A stretch of 64,000 bases of DNA, from assembly GCF_022095675.1 (NCBI RefSeq), contig NZ_JAHYSG010000038.1, positions 1 to 64,000 of the forward strand, given 5' to 3'. The stretch comes from Dactylosporangium sp. AC04546 (GTDB lineage Bacteria; Actinomycetota; Actinomycetes; Mycobacteriales; Micromonosporaceae). The first letter of the stretch is position 1, and each line of letters begins with the position of its first letter. The translations under genes were made by a program, and so were the position numbers. The notes beneath the pieces were generated by a model. That model was not told the DNA's origin. It worked only from the letters and a program-made list of their open reading frames with translations, and did no database searches. Of this stretch, positions 7,599 to 40,356 are shown in pieces.

Positions 7599-7662
7599 AG
7601 CGGGACCGAGGTTGACAGCGGCCGCTGAAACGGCGCTGAAACGCCGCTGAAGCACCTTCAGC
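7599..7662 (-). promoter_or_regulatory. lanL promoter with three 11-bp-phased TTTCAGC-type repeats
   Basis: Read on the minus strand, heptamers CTTCAGC, TTTCAGC and TTTCAGC lie at 7652-7646, 7641-7635 and 7630-7624, an exact 11 bp period. Eight bases after the last comes TCAACCT, a possible -10. Heptamer repeats of 11 bp period about 8 bp upstream of the -10 are the known layout of SARP-type activator sites. The outermost heptamer also forms an inverted repeat GCTGAAG-CAC-CTTCAGC (7646-7662). The pattern is repeated near 10784-10811. Confidence 0.6.
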
Positions 7663-35006: not shown

Positions 35007-36458
35007 CTACAGGCCGATGTTCGACTGCGGCCCGGAGTACGTGCGCAGCAGCGACGGCACGTCCGCCGCCGCGTCGAGCGTGTACGAGTAGAAGCTCGAC
35101 GGGGTGAACGCCGAGCCGTTGGTCTGCTGCTTGCCCGTGCAGTTGACGACGATGCTGCCGCTCTGGCGCAGCTGCGCCGCGGACGTGTCGTTGTAGTACG
35201 GGTTCGCGACCTTCTCGAAGTAGCTGTTCTCCAGCACCATCTTCGTGGCGCCGCGCGACAGGTTGCCGTACGACGTGATGTTCTGCAGGTAGTTGTTGTA
35301 GAGGTGCGCGTAGGCGACGTTGTCGGTGCTCGGGTTGCGCTGGTTCGTGTCGTGGATCCAGTTGTGGTGGATCGTCATGCGCGCGGTCACGTTGTCGGTC
35401 CAGCCGATGCCGAACGCCTTGTTCGTGTAGCCGAGGTTGTTCCACGACACCGTCAGGTTCGTGGTGTCCTTGCGGCTGTCGATGAGCCCGTCGTTGGTGC
35501 GGCTGATCGTGTTGTGGTCGATCCAGACGTGGTCGGCGGTGTCCATCTGGATGCCGTCGTAGTCGAAGTCCTTGTCGTCCGGGTCGTCGGAGGCGACGAG
35601 CGTGTCGCCGATGGTGAGGTTGCGGATGATGACGTTGCGGGTGCCGGCGCTGAGGTTGAACCCGCCGTTGAAGATCCGGCCGCTCTTGCCGACGCCGATG
35701 ATGGTCTTGTCGGACGTCACCGGGATCTCGTAGCCGTACGGCGTGACGGTCACGGTGGCATTGACCCGGATCACGTACTTGCCACTCATCGCCGCGTATC
35801 GCTTGAGATCGGCGAAGTTCGACACGGTGACGGTGGTGCCGCCGGCGCCGCCGGTGGTCCCGGCCGCGAAGCCGTCGGCGGTGTCCGACCACGTGCGCCC
35901 CGAAGAGGTCGTCGGCGCGGTCCCCACCTGGTTGAACGCGAACTGCATCCGGGCGACGTCGGAACAGGTCTCCTGGACGATCGGGTTGTTCCCGGCCGTG
36001 GAGCCGTCCTTGTCGCTGACACACAGCCCGGTGGCGACGTTCTTGATCAGGTACTTCCCGGCCGCCGCGGAGGACGCGGTGAACGTCCACTGCTGGTTCG
36101 TCTTGGTGCCGTCGCCGCAGCCCCACTGCTGCAGCTGCAGCCCGGAGGTCGTGGCACTGTTGGGGACATCGACGCACCTCGTGCTGCCGACATTCACCAA
36201 GGTGTACTGCGAGGAGCCCGCGACCTTCCATTGCTGGCGAGTCGCGCCGGACGCGCACGCCGCCTGCTGCAGCAGCGCGCCGTTGTCGGCCGACCCACCG
36301 GCCACCTCGACACACTTCCCGCTGGCACCCGGCACGACCGTGTAGACACCACCGGCGACCGGGGTGGTGGCGGCCTCGGCGGAGGGCAGCATCACCACCG
36401 CGACCACACCGGCGGGCACCGCCACCGCGGCGGCGAGGAGCACTCTCTTCAGACGCAT
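35007..36458 (-). CDS. Secreted pectate lyase (PL1) with RICIN lectin domain
   Basis: 483 residues: a Sec signal peptide (MRLKRVLLAAAVAVPAG, cleavage near AEA-A), a RICIN (QxW-type beta-trefoil) module at about 30-180 and a PL1 parallel beta-helix at about 195-483. PL1 motifs include VWIDHNTISRTNDGLIDSR (calcium-binding region) and TIHHNWIHDTNQRNP with the catalytic Arg. It cleaves de-esterified polygalacturonate by beta-elimination. It starts 14 bp after the methylesterase stop with a GGGAG site, so they are one operon. Its RICIN module is about 93 percent identical to that of the neighbour. Confidence 0.92.
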   Translation of the reverse strand: MRLKRVLLAAAVAVPAGVVAVVMLPSAEAATTPVAGGVYTVVPGASGKCVEVAGGSADNGALLQQAACASGATRQQWKVAGSSQYTLVNVGSTRCVDVPNSATTSGLQLQQWGCGDGTKTNQQWTFTASSAAAGKYLIKNVATGLCVSDKDGSTAGNNPIVQETCSDVARMQFAFNQVGTAPTTSSGRTWSDTADGFAAGTTGGAGGTTVTVSNFADLKRYAAMSGKYVIRVNATVTVTPYGYEIPVTSDKTIIGVGKSGRIFNGGFNLSAGTRNVIIRNLTIGDTLVASDDPDDKDFDYDGIQMDTADHVWIDHNTISRTNDGLIDSRKDTTNLTVSWNNLGYTNKAFGIGWTDNVTARMTIHHNWIHDTNQRNPSTDNVAYAHLYNNYLQNITSYGNLSRGATKMVLENSYFEKVANPYYNDTSAAQLRQSGSIVVNCTGKQQTNGSAFTPSSFYSYTLDAAADVPSLLRTYSGPQSNIGL

Positions 36459-36472
36459 CGAAACTCCCATGG

Positions 36473-37936
36473 TTAGAGCGGGTCCCAGCCGTCCGTGCCG
36501 GCCAGGTACTTCTGCGGGGTGTAGTTGGCCGCCTGCGCGTCGCTGAGCTGGGGCCGGTTGCTGTTGGTCCCGGCGCCGGCGCCGGTGTTGCGGTACTCCA
36601 GGAAGCGCGCGTTCTTCCACGAGTTCGACGACATGTCGGTCCACGGCTGCGCGGTGCGGATCGTCGCGCTGAGGCTCGACTCGCGGTACAGCACCTGGGC
36701 GGCGGGACCCCACGGCCGGCCGAGCGTGGTCACGTTGTTCGCGGCGCCGGTGATCGTGCACTGGTAGAAGAGGATCCCGTAGGTCTTGCTCGCGTCGGTG
36801 TTGGCCGCGGTGATGGGGCCGCCGCTCGATCGCTTCTCATAGATCGTGCTCGACCGGAACACGACGGTCGCGCCGCCGAAGATGAAGTCGACGGTGCCCT
36901 CGACGTAGGAGTTCACGATGTACGCGCGGTAGTTGTTCACCAGCAGGGTGTCCTGGTTGCCGAGGAACCGCACGCCGTCGAAGACCGAGCGGTCGGCGTT
37001 GAGGTTCGCGGCCACGGCCTGGCTGCCCTCGCCGTAGTCGTTGGACATGGTGAGGTTCTTGGCGACGAAGTCGTGGCCGTTGACGAACACCGTCGCGCTG
37101 CCCGACGTGCCGTAGCCGCCGGCCGAGCTGTGGTTGTTGACGATGACCACGTTCGACGGCCCGGAACCGAGGCCCTGCAGCGTCACGTACGGCTTGTTCG
37201 ACGGGATCGTCACGATCTCCCGGTACGTGCCGGCCTTGATGGTGATGACCCGCCGCGTCGTGTTGTTCGCCGGTACCGCGTCGATCGCCGCCTGCACCGT
37301 GCGGTAGGTGCCCGAGCCGTCGGCGGCGACGGTCGGTGTGGCGCCGTTCGTGGTCGTCGGCGTGGTCGGGGTGGTGCCGCCGACCTGGTTGAACGCGAAC
37401 TGCATGCGGGCGACGTCGGCGCAGGTCTCCTGCACGATCGGGTTGTTCCCGGCGGTCGAGCCGTCCTTGTCGCTCACGCACAGCCCGGTGGCGACGCTCT
37501 TGATCAGATACTTCCCCGAGGCGGCCGACGACGCCGTGAACGTCCACAGCTGGTTCGTCTTGGTCCCGTCACCGCAGCCCCACTGCTGCAGCTGCAGCCC
37601 GGAGGTCGCGGCACTGTTGGGGACATCGACGCACCTCGTACTGGAGATATTGACCAACGTGTACGGCGAGGAGCCCGCGACGCGAAACTGCTGGCGAGTC
37701 GCGCCGGAGGCACACGCCGCCTGCTGCAGCAGCGCGCCATTGTCGGCCGACCCACCGGCCACCTCGACACACTTCCCGCTGGCACCGGGCACGATCGTGT
37801 AGACGCCGCCGGCGACGGGCGTGGTGGCGGCCTCGGCGGAAGGCATCACCACCGCGACCACGGCGACGGTGGCGGGCACCGCGACGCCGAGGACGGCGAG
37901 CAGCAAATGTCGGCCGAGCCGACGCTGTCTGGGCAT
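36473..37936 (-). CDS. Secreted pectin methylesterase (CE8) with RICIN lectin domain
   Basis: 487 residues: signal peptide (HLLLAVLGVAVPATVAVVAV), RICIN module at about 36-190, a Thr/Pro linker and a CE8 domain at about 205-487. CE8 hallmarks are GNQDTLL (catalytic Gln/Asp region), GTVDFIFGGA with the nucleophilic Asp, and LGRPWGP with the substrate Arg. It removes methyl groups from pectin, producing the substrate of the PL1 lyase encoded next. It is the first gene of the operon, divergent from the sigma-sensor fusion gene with 269 bp between starts. Confidence 0.93.
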   Translation of the reverse strand: MPRQRRLGRHLLLAVLGVAVPATVAVVAVVMPSAEAATTPVAGGVYTIVPGASGKCVEVAGGSADNGALLQQAACASGATRQQFRVAGSSPYTLVNISSTRCVDVPNSAATSGLQLQQWGCGDGTKTNQLWTFTASSAASGKYLIKSVATGLCVSDKDGSTAGNNPIVQETCADVARMQFAFNQVGGTTPTTPTTTNGATPTVAADGSGTYRTVQAAIDAVPANNTTRRVITIKAGTYREIVTIPSNKPYVTLQGLGSGPSNVVIVNNHSSAGGYGTSGSATVFVNGHDFVAKNLTMSNDYGEGSQAVAANLNADRSVFDGVRFLGNQDTLLVNNYRAYIVNSYVEGTVDFIFGGATVVFRSSTIYEKRSSGGPITAANTDASKTYGILFYQCTITGAANNVTTLGRPWGPAAQVLYRESSLSATIRTAQPWTDMSSNSWKNARFLEYRNTGAGAGTNSNRPQLSDAQAANYTPQKYLAGTDGWDPL

Positions 37937-37994: not shown

Positions 37995-38205
37995 CTGGTA
38001 GATGCATCGGCCGTGGGAGCGATAACAAAAATTCGCGGCCGTCCTGGAAGATCTTGGAAGGCAGCGGCGGCCGTCGCTGCTTTACAGCCCGGACGTGCCG
38101 TGCAACCATGCGGGGCGCGATTTCCGCCCGGCGGCCACGAGCAGGACGGCTGGTGACCGCCGGCGCGGAGCCGGGCCGCAGAGCACGTCCGGAGGAGACC
38201 ACACC

Positions 38206-40356
38206 GTGACGGAGAGTAGGACCGCGCCGAAGACCGCCGGGACCACGATCGAGGACCCGGTCGCGCTCGTGCGGGCCGCCCAGGCCGGCGACGACCGGGC
38301 GCTCGAGCGGCTCGCCGCCGCGTTCCTGCCGCTGGTGTACAACGTCATCGGCCGCGCGCTCGACGGGCACGCCGACGTGGACGACCTCGTCCAGGAGACG
38401 ATGATCCAATTCGTGCGGGGGCTGCCGGACCTGCGGGAGCCGGAGCGGTTCCGAGCCTGGTTGATCGCCATCGCGTACCGCCAGGTCCAGCTGCACCTGC
38501 GCAACCGGCAGCGCAACCAGCGCCGGCGGCAGGAGGGGCCGGTGGAGCTCGCCGACCCGCGCGGCGACTTCGTCGACCGGACGGTCACCGAGCTCGTCCT
38601 CACCGGCCAGCGCCGCGAGCTGGCCGACGCCACCCGCTGGCTCGACGAGCGCGACCGGCACCTGCTCGCCCTGTGGTGGCAGGAGGCGTCGGGCACGCTC
38701 TCCCGGGCCGAGCTCGCCGCCGCCCTCGGGGTGGCGCCGGCCCACGCCGCCGTCCGGGTCCAGCGGATGCGCGCCCAGCTGGAGGTGGCCCGGTCGGTCG
38801 TGCGGGCACTGCGGGCCGAGCCGCGCTGTGCCGAGCTCGACGCCCTGGTGCGTCCCTGGCACGGCACCGCCGACGGCCTGTGGCGCAAGCGCCTGGCCCG
38901 GCACGTGCGCGGCTGCCCGGCCTGCGGCGCGCAGCGGACCGGCCTGGTCGCGCCGGAGCAGCTGCTGCGGGGCCTGGCGGCGGTACCGCTGCCGCTCGCG
39001 CTGGAAACACTGCGCGTCACGAGCCTCGGATCCGGCGCGGCCACCACACCGATCGCGGGCGCGGTCGCTGGCACGGGGCTGCTCGCGCACCTCCAGCACG
39101 CCGCCGGCACGAAGCTGGCCGCCGCCGGGGCCGTCGTGCTGATCGCCGGCGGCGGGATCGCGTTCGCGGTGTACGAGACGCCGCTCACCGACGGTGGCGG
39201 CCCGGTCGCCGCCCCGCCGCCCGCGGCCACCGCCACGGTGCCGCCGCCACCCACCGCGACCGGACCGTCCGGACCGGTGAGCGCCGCGCCGTCGGCGTCG
39301 GCGGCCGTCCCGCCGCCCGGCGGCACCGGTGTAACTTTCGCCGACATCTACGTCGCCCCCGGCGGGTCCGACACCGCCGACGGCACCGCGCAGCGGCCGT
39401 TCGCCACGCTCGGCAAGGCCGTCGCCGTGGTGCGGCCCGGCCAGACCATCGCGCTGCGCGGCGGGACGTACCGGCCGGCCGCCCCGGTGACGATCGGCAC
39501 CAGCGGCGACGCGGAGCACCACATCACGCTCAGCGCCTACGGCGACGAGAAGCCCGTCATCGACGCCGCCGGCATCCCGTCGGACAAGTACCTGGTCACG
39601 CAGCGGGCCTCGTACTGGACTGTGCAGGGGATCGAGGTCCGCAACGCGCCCAGCCACGCCTGGGTGTGCTTCTCCTGCCGGTACAACACCTTCCAACGCA
39701 TGACGATGCGCGACAACGCGTCGTCCGGCCTCACCCTGCGTGATCCCGGCACCGTCGGCAACCAGGTCCTGAACAGCGACTTCCTCGGCCGCGCCGGGAT
39801 CGGGCTGGGCATCAAGTTCGGCGACGGCGAGGGCAACGTCGTGCGCGGGTGCCGCATGAGCGGCGCGTCCGGCGACGGCGTCGACCTGGGCGAGTTCACC
39901 GGTGCGGTGACGCTGGAGTACAACTGGGCCTGGGGCAACGGCAAGAGCGGCTTCAACCTCGGCGGCGGCGACCCGCCGGCCGGCGCCGCGCACAAGCTGC
40001 GCCACAACGCCGCGTGGGACAACGCCCGCCACGGCTTCGCCGACGACGGCAACCCGGCCGCGCTGGAGCTGCAGAACAACACGGCGTTCCGCAACCGCGG
40101 CAACGGCTTCAACATGACCACCGCGGCGGCCGTCCTGCGCAGCAACGTCGCCGTCGGCAACGCCGCCCCCACCAGCACCGGCGCCGGGGTGCGCAGCAGC
40201 CGCAACACGTGGGACGAGGGCAGCTGGGACGCGACGATGTTCTCCTCGACCGACCCGGCCGTCGCGCAGGGCCCGCGCCGCGCCGACGGGACGATGACAC
40301 CGACCGACTTCCTGCGCACCGGCAACGGCATGGGTGCGTCGATGTCGGGCGGCTAG
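38206..40356 (+). CDS. ECF-type sigma factor fused to zinc anti-sigma motif, membrane helix and extracellular PL9-like beta-helix
   Basis: 716 residues. Sigma region 2 lies at about 37-102 (HADVDDLVQETMIQFVRGL, then FRAWLIAIAYRQVQ) and region 4 at about 129-199 (LSRAELAAALGVAPAHAAVR). HVRGCPACG at 233-241 gives the HxxxCxxC of zinc anti-sigma (ZAS) domains. One hydrophobic helix lies at about 303-324, then a Pro/Ala linker at 331-378, and a right-handed beta-helix at 380-716 beginning IYVAPGGSDTADGTAQRPFA, like PL9 pectate lyases. The sigma part would be cytoplasmic and the beta-helix outside. GTG 38206 follows GGAGGAG. It is divergent from the pectinase operon. The segment WGNGKSGFNLGGG appears to have Asn where I recall the catalytic Lys of PL9 enzymes, which suits a sensor. 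Confidence 0.9.
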   Translation: MTESRTAPKTAGTTIEDPVALVRAAQAGDDRALERLAAAFLPLVYNVIGRALDGHADVDDLVQETMIQFVRGLPDLREPERFRAWLIAIAYRQVQLHLRNRQRNQRRRQEGPVELADPRGDFVDRTVTELVLTGQRRELADATRWLDERDRHLLALWWQEASGTLSRAELAAALGVAPAHAAVRVQRMRAQLEVARSVVRALRAEPRCAELDALVRPWHGTADGLWRKRLARHVRGCPACGAQRTGLVAPEQLLRGLAAVPLPLALETLRVTSLGSGAATTPIAGAVAGTGLLAHLQHAAGTKLAAAGAVVLIAGGGIAFAVYETPLTDGGGPVAAPPPAATATVPPPPTATGPSGPVSAAPSASAAVPPPGGTGVTFADIYVAPGGSDTADGTAQRPFATLGKAVAVVRPGQTIALRGGTYRPAAPVTIGTSGDAEHHITLSAYGDEKPVIDAAGIPSDKYLVTQRASYWTVQGIEVRNAPSHAWVCFSCRYNTFQRMTMRDNASSGLTLRDPGTVGNQVLNSDFLGRAGIGLGIKFGDGEGNVVRGCRMSGASGDGVDLGEFTGAVTLEYNWAWGNGKSGFNLGGGDPPAGAAHKLRHNAAWDNARHGFADDGNPAALELQNNTAFRNRGNGFNMTTAAAVLRSNVAVGNAAPTSTGAGVRSSRNTWDEGSWDATMFSSTDPAVAQGPRRADGTMTPTDFLRTGNGMGASMSGG

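Follow-up and report, generated by a model that had tools for sequence, protein, structure and literature searches.

The window analyzed here, a 64,000-nucleotide stretch of Dactylosporangium sp. AC04546 (contig NZ_JAHYSG010000038.1, positions 1 to 64,000), contains a gene that encodes, in a single 716-residue protein (P0001), an extracytoplasmic function (ECF) sigma factor, a zinc anti-sigma (ZAS) motif, a predicted transmembrane (TM) helix and an extracellular domain similar to polysaccharide lyases of family PL9 (hereinafter, the sigma-PL9 gene and protein). Comparative sequence analysis suggests, with a probability that we put at roughly three in four, that P0001 is an ECF sigma factor anchored in the membrane, carries its zinc anti-sigma domain in the same chain, senses a pectic polymer or a fragment thereof with an ectodomain that derives from a lyase and is probably not catalytic, and controls the adjacent pectinase operon.

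Domain architecture of the sigma-PL9 protein

The gene is an intact open reading frame (ORF) that starts with GTG at 38206, ends with a stop at 40356 and has no internal stops.

38206..40356, + strand: sigma-ZAS-TM-PL9 gene (P0001, 716 aa); at least 120 homologues with the same architecture
38314..38514, + strand: sigma-70 region 2, residues 37-103; PF04542 (Sigma70_r2), E = 3.3e-13
38557..38814, + strand: sigma region 4, about residues 118-203; TIGR02937, and a profile of 37 relatives against sigma-E (1or7)
38827..38925, + strand: zinc anti-sigma motif C208-x24-H233-x3-C237-x2-C240; invariant residues
39115..39171, + strand: predicted TM helix, residues 304-322; hydropathy maximum 2.26 over 19 residues
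39202..39321, + strand: Pro/Ala-rich linker, about residues 333-372; from sequence and model
39334..40353, + strand: PL9-like beta-helix ectodomain, residues 377-716

TIGR02937 (sigma70-ECF) matches residues 32-194, the profile of 37 relatives covers both sigma regions in the comparison with sigma-E (positions 4-186, E = 1.5e-16), and structural comparison of the cytoplasmic region listed sigma factors, with the matches confined to residues 5-206; regions 2 and 4 are present without region 3, as in ECF sigma factors. ZAS domains follow the spacing rule Cx24-25HxxxCxxC, and this pattern is found after region 4 of P0001, with C208, H233, C237 and C240 being invariant in 54 aligned homologues as well as in 37 sigma parts that cover all ectodomain classes (rows of paralogues and orthologues). 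Because the Pfam zinc-finger family zf-HC2 does not match P0001 up to E = 0.1, the assignment of the zinc domain rests on these invariant residues. The TM helix is a hydropathy call that is modelled at low confidence, and the predicted local distance difference test (pLDDT) value is below 50 across residues 259-372. Pfam matches above the cut-off also include Beta_helix (E = 1.3e-11) and the Pel9A-like beta helix (E = 9.5e-8), and Pel9A (1ru4) aligns with residues 380-705 (E = 2.4e-21), which identifies the ectodomain as a right-handed beta-helix of the Pel9A type.

The initial annotation of this DNA had read the chain as a one-protein sensor with sigma regions 2 and 4, a zinc motif at His233, Cys237 and Cys240, one membrane helix and a PL9-like beta-helix. 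Its coordinates, reading frame and motif positions are correct, and the domain matches and homologues bear out the single-chain architecture; for the HxxxCxxC motif, the invariance of the residues stands, whereas the zf-HC2 profile gave nothing up to E = 0.1.

The homologue search yielded 800 matches at E <= 1e-10, of which 120 were listed; all 120 are full-length and contain PF04542, PF13229 and PF22842. The named homologues among the matches listed come mostly from Dactylosporangium, Actinoplanes, Rugosimonospora, Micromonospora, Solwaraspora, Plantactinospora, Phytohabitans and their kin, that is, mostly from genera of the Micromonosporaceae. Judging from these matches, the sigma-PL9 protein belongs to a family and is no accident, and an assembly chimera or a frameshift is very unlikely.

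Association with pectinase genes

Divergent from the sigma-PL9 gene lie two pectinase genes, the pectin methylesterase/pectate lyase operon that the initial annotation had pointed out.

36473..37936, - strand: secreted pectinesterase with a ricin-B lectin domain; PF01095, E = 1.4e-55
35007..36458, - strand: secreted PL1 pectate lyase with a ricin-B lectin domain; PF00544, E = 6.1e-18; start from the gene caller (36707 in the Pfam scan)

Sigma genes of the P0001 kind, regardless of the ectodomain (sigma-X genes), were sampled from 7 genomes of the genus and 26 of the family, where 40 were called. Eleven further sigma-PL9 loci were taken from a second genus, in which 10 of the 11 genomes matched at 1e-100 and the eleventh, G032, also carries one. 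The own gene calls missed genes in L083, L095 and L114, and the pairing counts were taken from a six-frame search, free of gene calls, with pectinesterase and PL1 profiles within 6 kb of the sigma gene; some of the locus stretches stop at contig ends. A pectinesterase, a PL1 lyase or both were detected at 19 of the 20 sigma-PL9 loci compared with none of the 34 other sigma-X loci (pectinesterase at 16/20 and PL1 at 18/20). Because of this difference, the operon in the window is, as far as genomic context tells, part of a rule and not a chance neighbour, and the pairing proposed in the initial annotation extends to the relatives.

A promoter element shared by the pectinase genes

Enumeration of spaced words upstream of the pectinase genes recovered GTTAT-N17-CGTC in 10 of 17 regions and in 2 of 198 control regions; the aligned element reads YGTTATC-N16-C(G/A)(T/C)CT (YGTTATC-N16-CRYCT). 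It precedes the pectinase operon in the window:

37998..38027, - strand: ECF-type promoter TGTTATC-N16-CATCTAC of the pectinase operon; same element before the pectinase genes of relatives, and one of two exact matches in the genome

At spacing 16, scores of 12-13 of 13 were reached by 18 of 546 upstream regions, 17 of them in sigma-PL9 loci, counts that come from the same loci that yielded the motif; each of eight other spacings gave at most one such region. The 17 regions precede pectinesterase or PL1 genes (14), the proteins encoded next to the sigma genes in L080 and L110 (two) and a GH25 gene divergent from the sigma gene (one, L062); the eighteenth (L083) adjoins another sigma-X gene. 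L114 and L175 carry TGTTAC-N16-CGTCT between the sigma gene and the divergent pectinase. Without the near-copy L113, the 19 loci thus comprise 14 with the element before pectinesterase or PL1, 2 with the element before a PL1-like protein, 2 with the shorter variant and 1 with a weak site. The view that the sensor activates the pectinases, put forward in the initial annotation, gains additional sequence support from the promoter shared with the pectinase genes of relatives.

Other material comes from whole-genome scans and from the loci of a paralogous class. Across 20 genomes, YGTTATCN16CRYCTHC has 18 exact matches and the reversed pattern has none. Sigma-PL9 loci account for 13 of the 18 (near-copies of G040 contribute two of the 13); the remaining five are beside another sigma-X gene in G023, inside ORFs in G015 (on C3) and G038, in G032 (on C10, the same 30-mer as in G038) and on C21 of the window's genome (G000). 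An exact match at the locus is present in 9 of the 12 genomes that carry a sigma-PL9 gene (the exceptions are G004, G038 and G032), whereas only one of the 8 genomes without the gene has any match, the one beside another sigma-X gene.

The window's genome (13.0 Mb in 348 contigs, with a listed contamination of 11.5%) has two exact matches, one at the pectinase operon and the other 37 bp upstream of an unlinked gene on C21; three sites with one mismatch overlap ORFs.

L139:5224-7563, - strand: PL11 rhamnogalacturonan lyase (PF21348, E = 5.8e-244); promoter-like site at 7600-7629

The 16-base spacers differ between the C21 site and that of the pectinase operon.

The AbfB-type sigma-X loci, enumerated blindly, yielded GTTAT-N18-GTCG at 6 loci compared with 0 of 448 control regions. 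A scan of all classes, with a pattern chosen after this result, found 16 sites with TCT and none with TCG at PL9 loci, and 10 with TCG and 2 with TCT at AbfB loci (Fisher 5e-6, uncorrected for descent); when the -35 word was permuted, each of six versions gave 0-3 sites, compared with 33 for GTTAT-N18. Sigma genes with PF11790-type (GH128-type) ectodomains have GTTAT-N17/18-GTCTC before themselves in 9 of 10 cases. Paralogues with arabinan-type or GH128-like ectodomains have the -35 core in common and differ in the -10 element or the spacing.

Given that ECF promoters are alike and that the window's genome encodes many ECF factors (15 matches to P0001 alone), the conserved promoter might be read by another ECF factor, the sigma-PL9 protein being a bystander that moves with the operon. 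However, the -35 core is also found upstream of genes in the paralogous sigma-X classes, where each class has its own -10 element or spacing; together with the distribution of the full pattern among genomes with and without sigma-PL9 genes, this makes a bystander role improbable and favors control of the operon by the sigma-PL9 protein itself.

A separate observation concerns L083:8284-10026 (+ strand), a sigma sensor whose ectodomain has no Pfam match and which is divergent from a lectin/BNR-repeat protein gene bearing TGTTATC-N16-CATCTCC.

Loss of lyase active-site residues in the ectodomain

The active site was compared at residues 532, 556, 557, 560 and 584 of P0001, aligned to the site of Pel9A, in which we take Lys273 to be the catalytic lysine and Asp209, Asp233, Asp234 and Asp237 to be four acidic calcium ligands.

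39955..39957, + strand: codon of N584, in the position of the PL9 catalytic Lys; Lys in 8/8 secreted PL9 rows (7 genes) and 0/120 listed homologues

P0001 has IGDDN at these positions compared with DDDDK in all secreted PL9 rows, and thus has lost the catalytic lysine along with two of the four acidic positions aligned with the calcium site. Among the 120 listed homologues (of 800), none has Lys at 584 (N, T, A, V and others are found instead) and none has Asp at 532. The ectodomain in the window is, by these comparisons, lyase-derived and probably non-catalytic; the window's genome also encodes a separate, secreted PL9 enzyme. This is not a property of the entire class: the lysine is kept at 11 of the 19 sampled sigma-PL9 loci and all five residues at 5 of the 19 (two near-copies among the 5), and L175 carries Arg in the lysine position. 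Hence the loss that the initial annotation had noted, Asn in place of the catalytic Lys, is real and extends to the two acidic positions, but the non-catalytic sensor does not generalize to all relatives.

In a quick tree of PL9 domains, with a random 28 of the 120 listed homologues and without L113, all sensors separate from the enzymes with a support of 100, and the sensors with and without the lysine fall on two sides, with L114 as the sole exception. With the enzymes as the outgroup, fusion before the loss of catalysis appears to be the simpler order, although the tree alone does not prove the direction. A CxxC pair, C488/C491 (window 39667-39678), is invariant in the sensors (19/19 loci and 120/120 listed homologues), is found in 3 of the 8 enzyme rows and may form a disulfide.

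The relatives that keep the lysine, with the same pairing and promoter, may signal on a product or on turnover, and P0001 might likewise be a catalytic sensor that weakly cleaves pectin. Considering that all 120 listed homologues in the window's clade lack both the lysine and D532, and that pairing and promoter persist without the active-site residues, this is very improbable. As for the ligand, fold comparison indicates that beta-helices of this size also resemble alginate and other lyases, and with several PL9 binding-site residues lost, the specificity may have shifted; the ectodomain could then bind another uronic-acid polymer (an own envelope polymer, biofilm or microbial polysaccharide), with the pectinases being only part of a wider response. 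We consider this unlikely, and a pectic polymer or fragment is the preferred candidate.

Proposed mode of action

From the observed domains, residue losses, neighbourhood and promoter, we infer the ligand, the in-chain inhibition, the release and the transcription of the operon as follows. Without a ligand, the zinc domain would keep the sigma part (regions 2 and 4) at the membrane in an inactive state, and binding of a pectic ligand outside would free the sigma part. Regulated intramembrane proteolysis is the most likely route of release, and unmasking alone is less likely; proteolysis has a precedent in IutY and was put forward for ECF48/52/53 and SCO4117 (see below). The freed sigma factor would then initiate transcription at YGTTATC-N16-C(G/A)(T/C)CT before the pectinesterase/PL1 operon and, in the window's genome, also upstream of the unlinked rhamnogalacturonan lyase gene. 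P0001 would be one of a set of paralogous sensors with a common sigma/zinc/membrane part and -35 core but different ectodomains and -10 elements or spacing.

Along with the lysines retained in relatives and the origin of the promoter counts from the motif-yielding loci, several observations weigh against this scheme. The docking of the zinc domain onto the sigma domains is putative, the model of the cytoplasmic part having a predicted template modelling score (pTM) of 0.54. The Fisher value for the pairing, 2.9e-13 with L113 dropped, overstates independence, given that the loci share descent. L110 is the sole locus without a pectinesterase or PL1 match; the CBM2 protein encoded next to its sigma gene is 85% identical to the counterpart in L080, for which the PF00544 match is itself below the cut-off (8.9e-5). 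L063 has only a weak site, TGTAATC...CACCTC. Unlike in many ECF systems, no such element was found before the sigma-PL9 gene itself, and autoregulation through the same promoter was rejected. Finally, the N-terminal lectin parts of the PL11 protein and of the window's pectinesterase share 84% identity, so the PL11 site may be a duplication by-product, with the promoter copied along; the element is missing upstream of the PL11 genes in 22 rows from other genomes, where the best scores are 9-11 of 14, and a conserved PL11 link was dropped.

Relationship to known systems

Single-chain sigma factors of this general kind have been described, and the comparisons below draw on portions of the cited papers. 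Some ECF52/53 fusions contain predicted hydrolase or carbohydrate-binding domains of untested function (PMC10766802), and proteolytic activation has been proposed for ECF48/52/53 (PMC8999054). The ECF52 protein SCO4117 of Streptomyces coelicolor, which acts on development and antibiotics, combines, like P0001, an ECF sigma factor, a zinc finger, a membrane helix, a Pro-rich stretch and a carbohydrate-related domain in an actinobacterial protein; ligand-triggered proteolysis or conformational release has been proposed (Pinto and Mascher 2016, cited in PMC5826349). Its ectodomain is a carbohydrate-binding module, whereas that of P0001 is a decayed lyase; its proposed motif is CSGYN-17-SRHA (PMC5826349) as opposed to YGTTATC-N16-CRYCT; and the portion of PMC5826349 consulted describes no matching enzyme operon, whereas P0001 adjoins pectinases. 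ECF53 proteins share the C-terminal anti-sigma and membrane part, but the consulted portion of PMC8999054 mentions no PL9 ectodomain, pectinase pairing or promoter code, all three of which occur in the P0001 family. Compared with the published descriptions of ECF52/ECF53, P0001 has their in-chain zinc motif, membrane helix, Pro-rich and carbohydrate-related extension and actinobacterial origin.

In the clostridial SigI/RsgI systems, extracellular glycan domains also control an alternative sigma factor: sigma-I3 serves pectinases including rgl11A, and RsgI ectodomains include CBM3, CBM42, GH10 and PA14 (PMC6056542, PMC12203970), paralleled among the P0001 relatives by CBM42-type (AbfB) and lyase-type ectodomains. 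These systems consist of two proteins, a sigma-I without region 4 and an RsgI with an autocleaving periplasmic domain, whereas P0001 combines a zinc domain with regions 2 and 4 in one chain, and no RsgI domain is among its Pfam matches up to E = 0.1. IutY of Pseudomonas putida (ECF243) likewise joins sigma and anti-sigma in one membrane-bound chain that is released proteolytically (PMC8999054), but functions in Gram-negative iron uptake via a TonB-dependent receptor and has no glycan domain.

On the enzyme side, the P0001 ectodomain resembles Pel9A (1ru4) and the rhamnogalacturonan lyase 5olr, which we take to be a PL9 member, in fold and sequence, and differs in the loss of the catalytic lysine and part of the acidic site and in the fusion to a sigma factor.

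The literature covered, which did not extend to the primary ECF classification papers, yielded no PL9-fused sigma factor, pectinase pairing or such promoter code in Actinobacteria. The class of architecture is already known as ECF52/53, and the apparent novelty lies in the PL9 ectodomain, the pectinase pairing and the promoter code. The initial annotation had rightly mentioned ECF53-like extensions with carbohydrate domains, which are indeed published (partial accounts in PMC8999054, PMC10766802 and PMC5826349), so the kind is not unprecedented.

ECF52/53 fusions, long familiar from genome sequences, lack a demonstrated ligand and regulon. The sigma-PL9 locus supplies a candidate ligand (a pectic glycan), a presumed target operon and, unlinked to it, a second presumed target, as well as a 30-base promoter for which the paralogous classes serve as an internal control; this makes the one-protein receptor model directly testable. 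If true, it would be a single-gene parallel to the two-protein clostridial biomass sensors and a degraded enzyme turned receptor, some of whose relatives still keep the catalytic residues.

Paralogous sensors with other ectodomains

HxxxCxxC is present in 39 of the 40 called sigma-X genes. By similarity, their ectodomains are AbfB (16), PF11790 (10), PL9 (8), ricin-B (2), singles (2) and too short (2); Pfam confirms examples of AbfB, PF11790, ricin-B and CAP, and a DUF4185 match in one ectodomain (38.5 bits) is just below the cut-off of 39.5. The six ectodomain types require five changes, the minimum possible, in a quick tree built on the sigma/zinc part without L016 (a remnant) and L078 (263 aa, no ectodomain); there, the PL9 type forms one side of a branch with a support of 89. 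The near-copy L113 was left out of statistics and trees, and L006 duplicates P0124.

AbfB-type sigma genes are near a gene of a lectin/CBM2 cluster of carbohydrate-active enzymes (CAZymes) at 12 of 16 loci, where the Pfam-scanned members include GH10, GH43, GH62, GH54, GH27 and GH29; such a gene is near 1 of 10 PF11790-type and none of 4 other sigma genes, so this neighbourhood is not common to all sigma-X genes. The paralogues in the window's genome include one with a PF11790 glycosidase core, one short remnant and one of the AbfB type that adjoins GH43, GH62, GH10 and GDSL genes.

We lean, though not strongly, towards the view that Micromonosporaceae evolved a set of one-protein glycan receptors, in which a common sigma/zinc/membrane chassis was joined to decayed lyases, arabinose-binding domains, glycosidase cores, lectins or CAP domains. 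Through a promoter code, each class would control either its own enzymes or itself; the codes would have the GTTAT -35 core in common and differ between classes in the -10 base (T or G after GTC) or the spacing (17 or 18). The sensor in the window would descend from a PL9 lyase that was still active when the fusion took place and became non-catalytic afterwards.

Several individual loci were also recorded. A PF11790-type sigma sensor, G000:C11:7474-9282 (L013) together with L064-L068, is syntenic in six genomes of the genus, carries GTTAT-N17-GTCTC 26-34 bp upstream of its own start and has no enzyme partner nearby. L016:12504-13235 (- strand) is the AbfB-type remnant in the window's genome, with most of region 2 gone. 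L095:7884-9209 (+ strand), a 441-aa sigma frame without a recognized ectodomain, adjoins a gene for a lectin protein that weakly matches PL1, and resembles a decayed sensor. In L089:7848-9215 (- strand), the same sigma/zinc/membrane chassis carries an outside CAP domain, and GTTAT-N17-GTCTCC precedes its own start.
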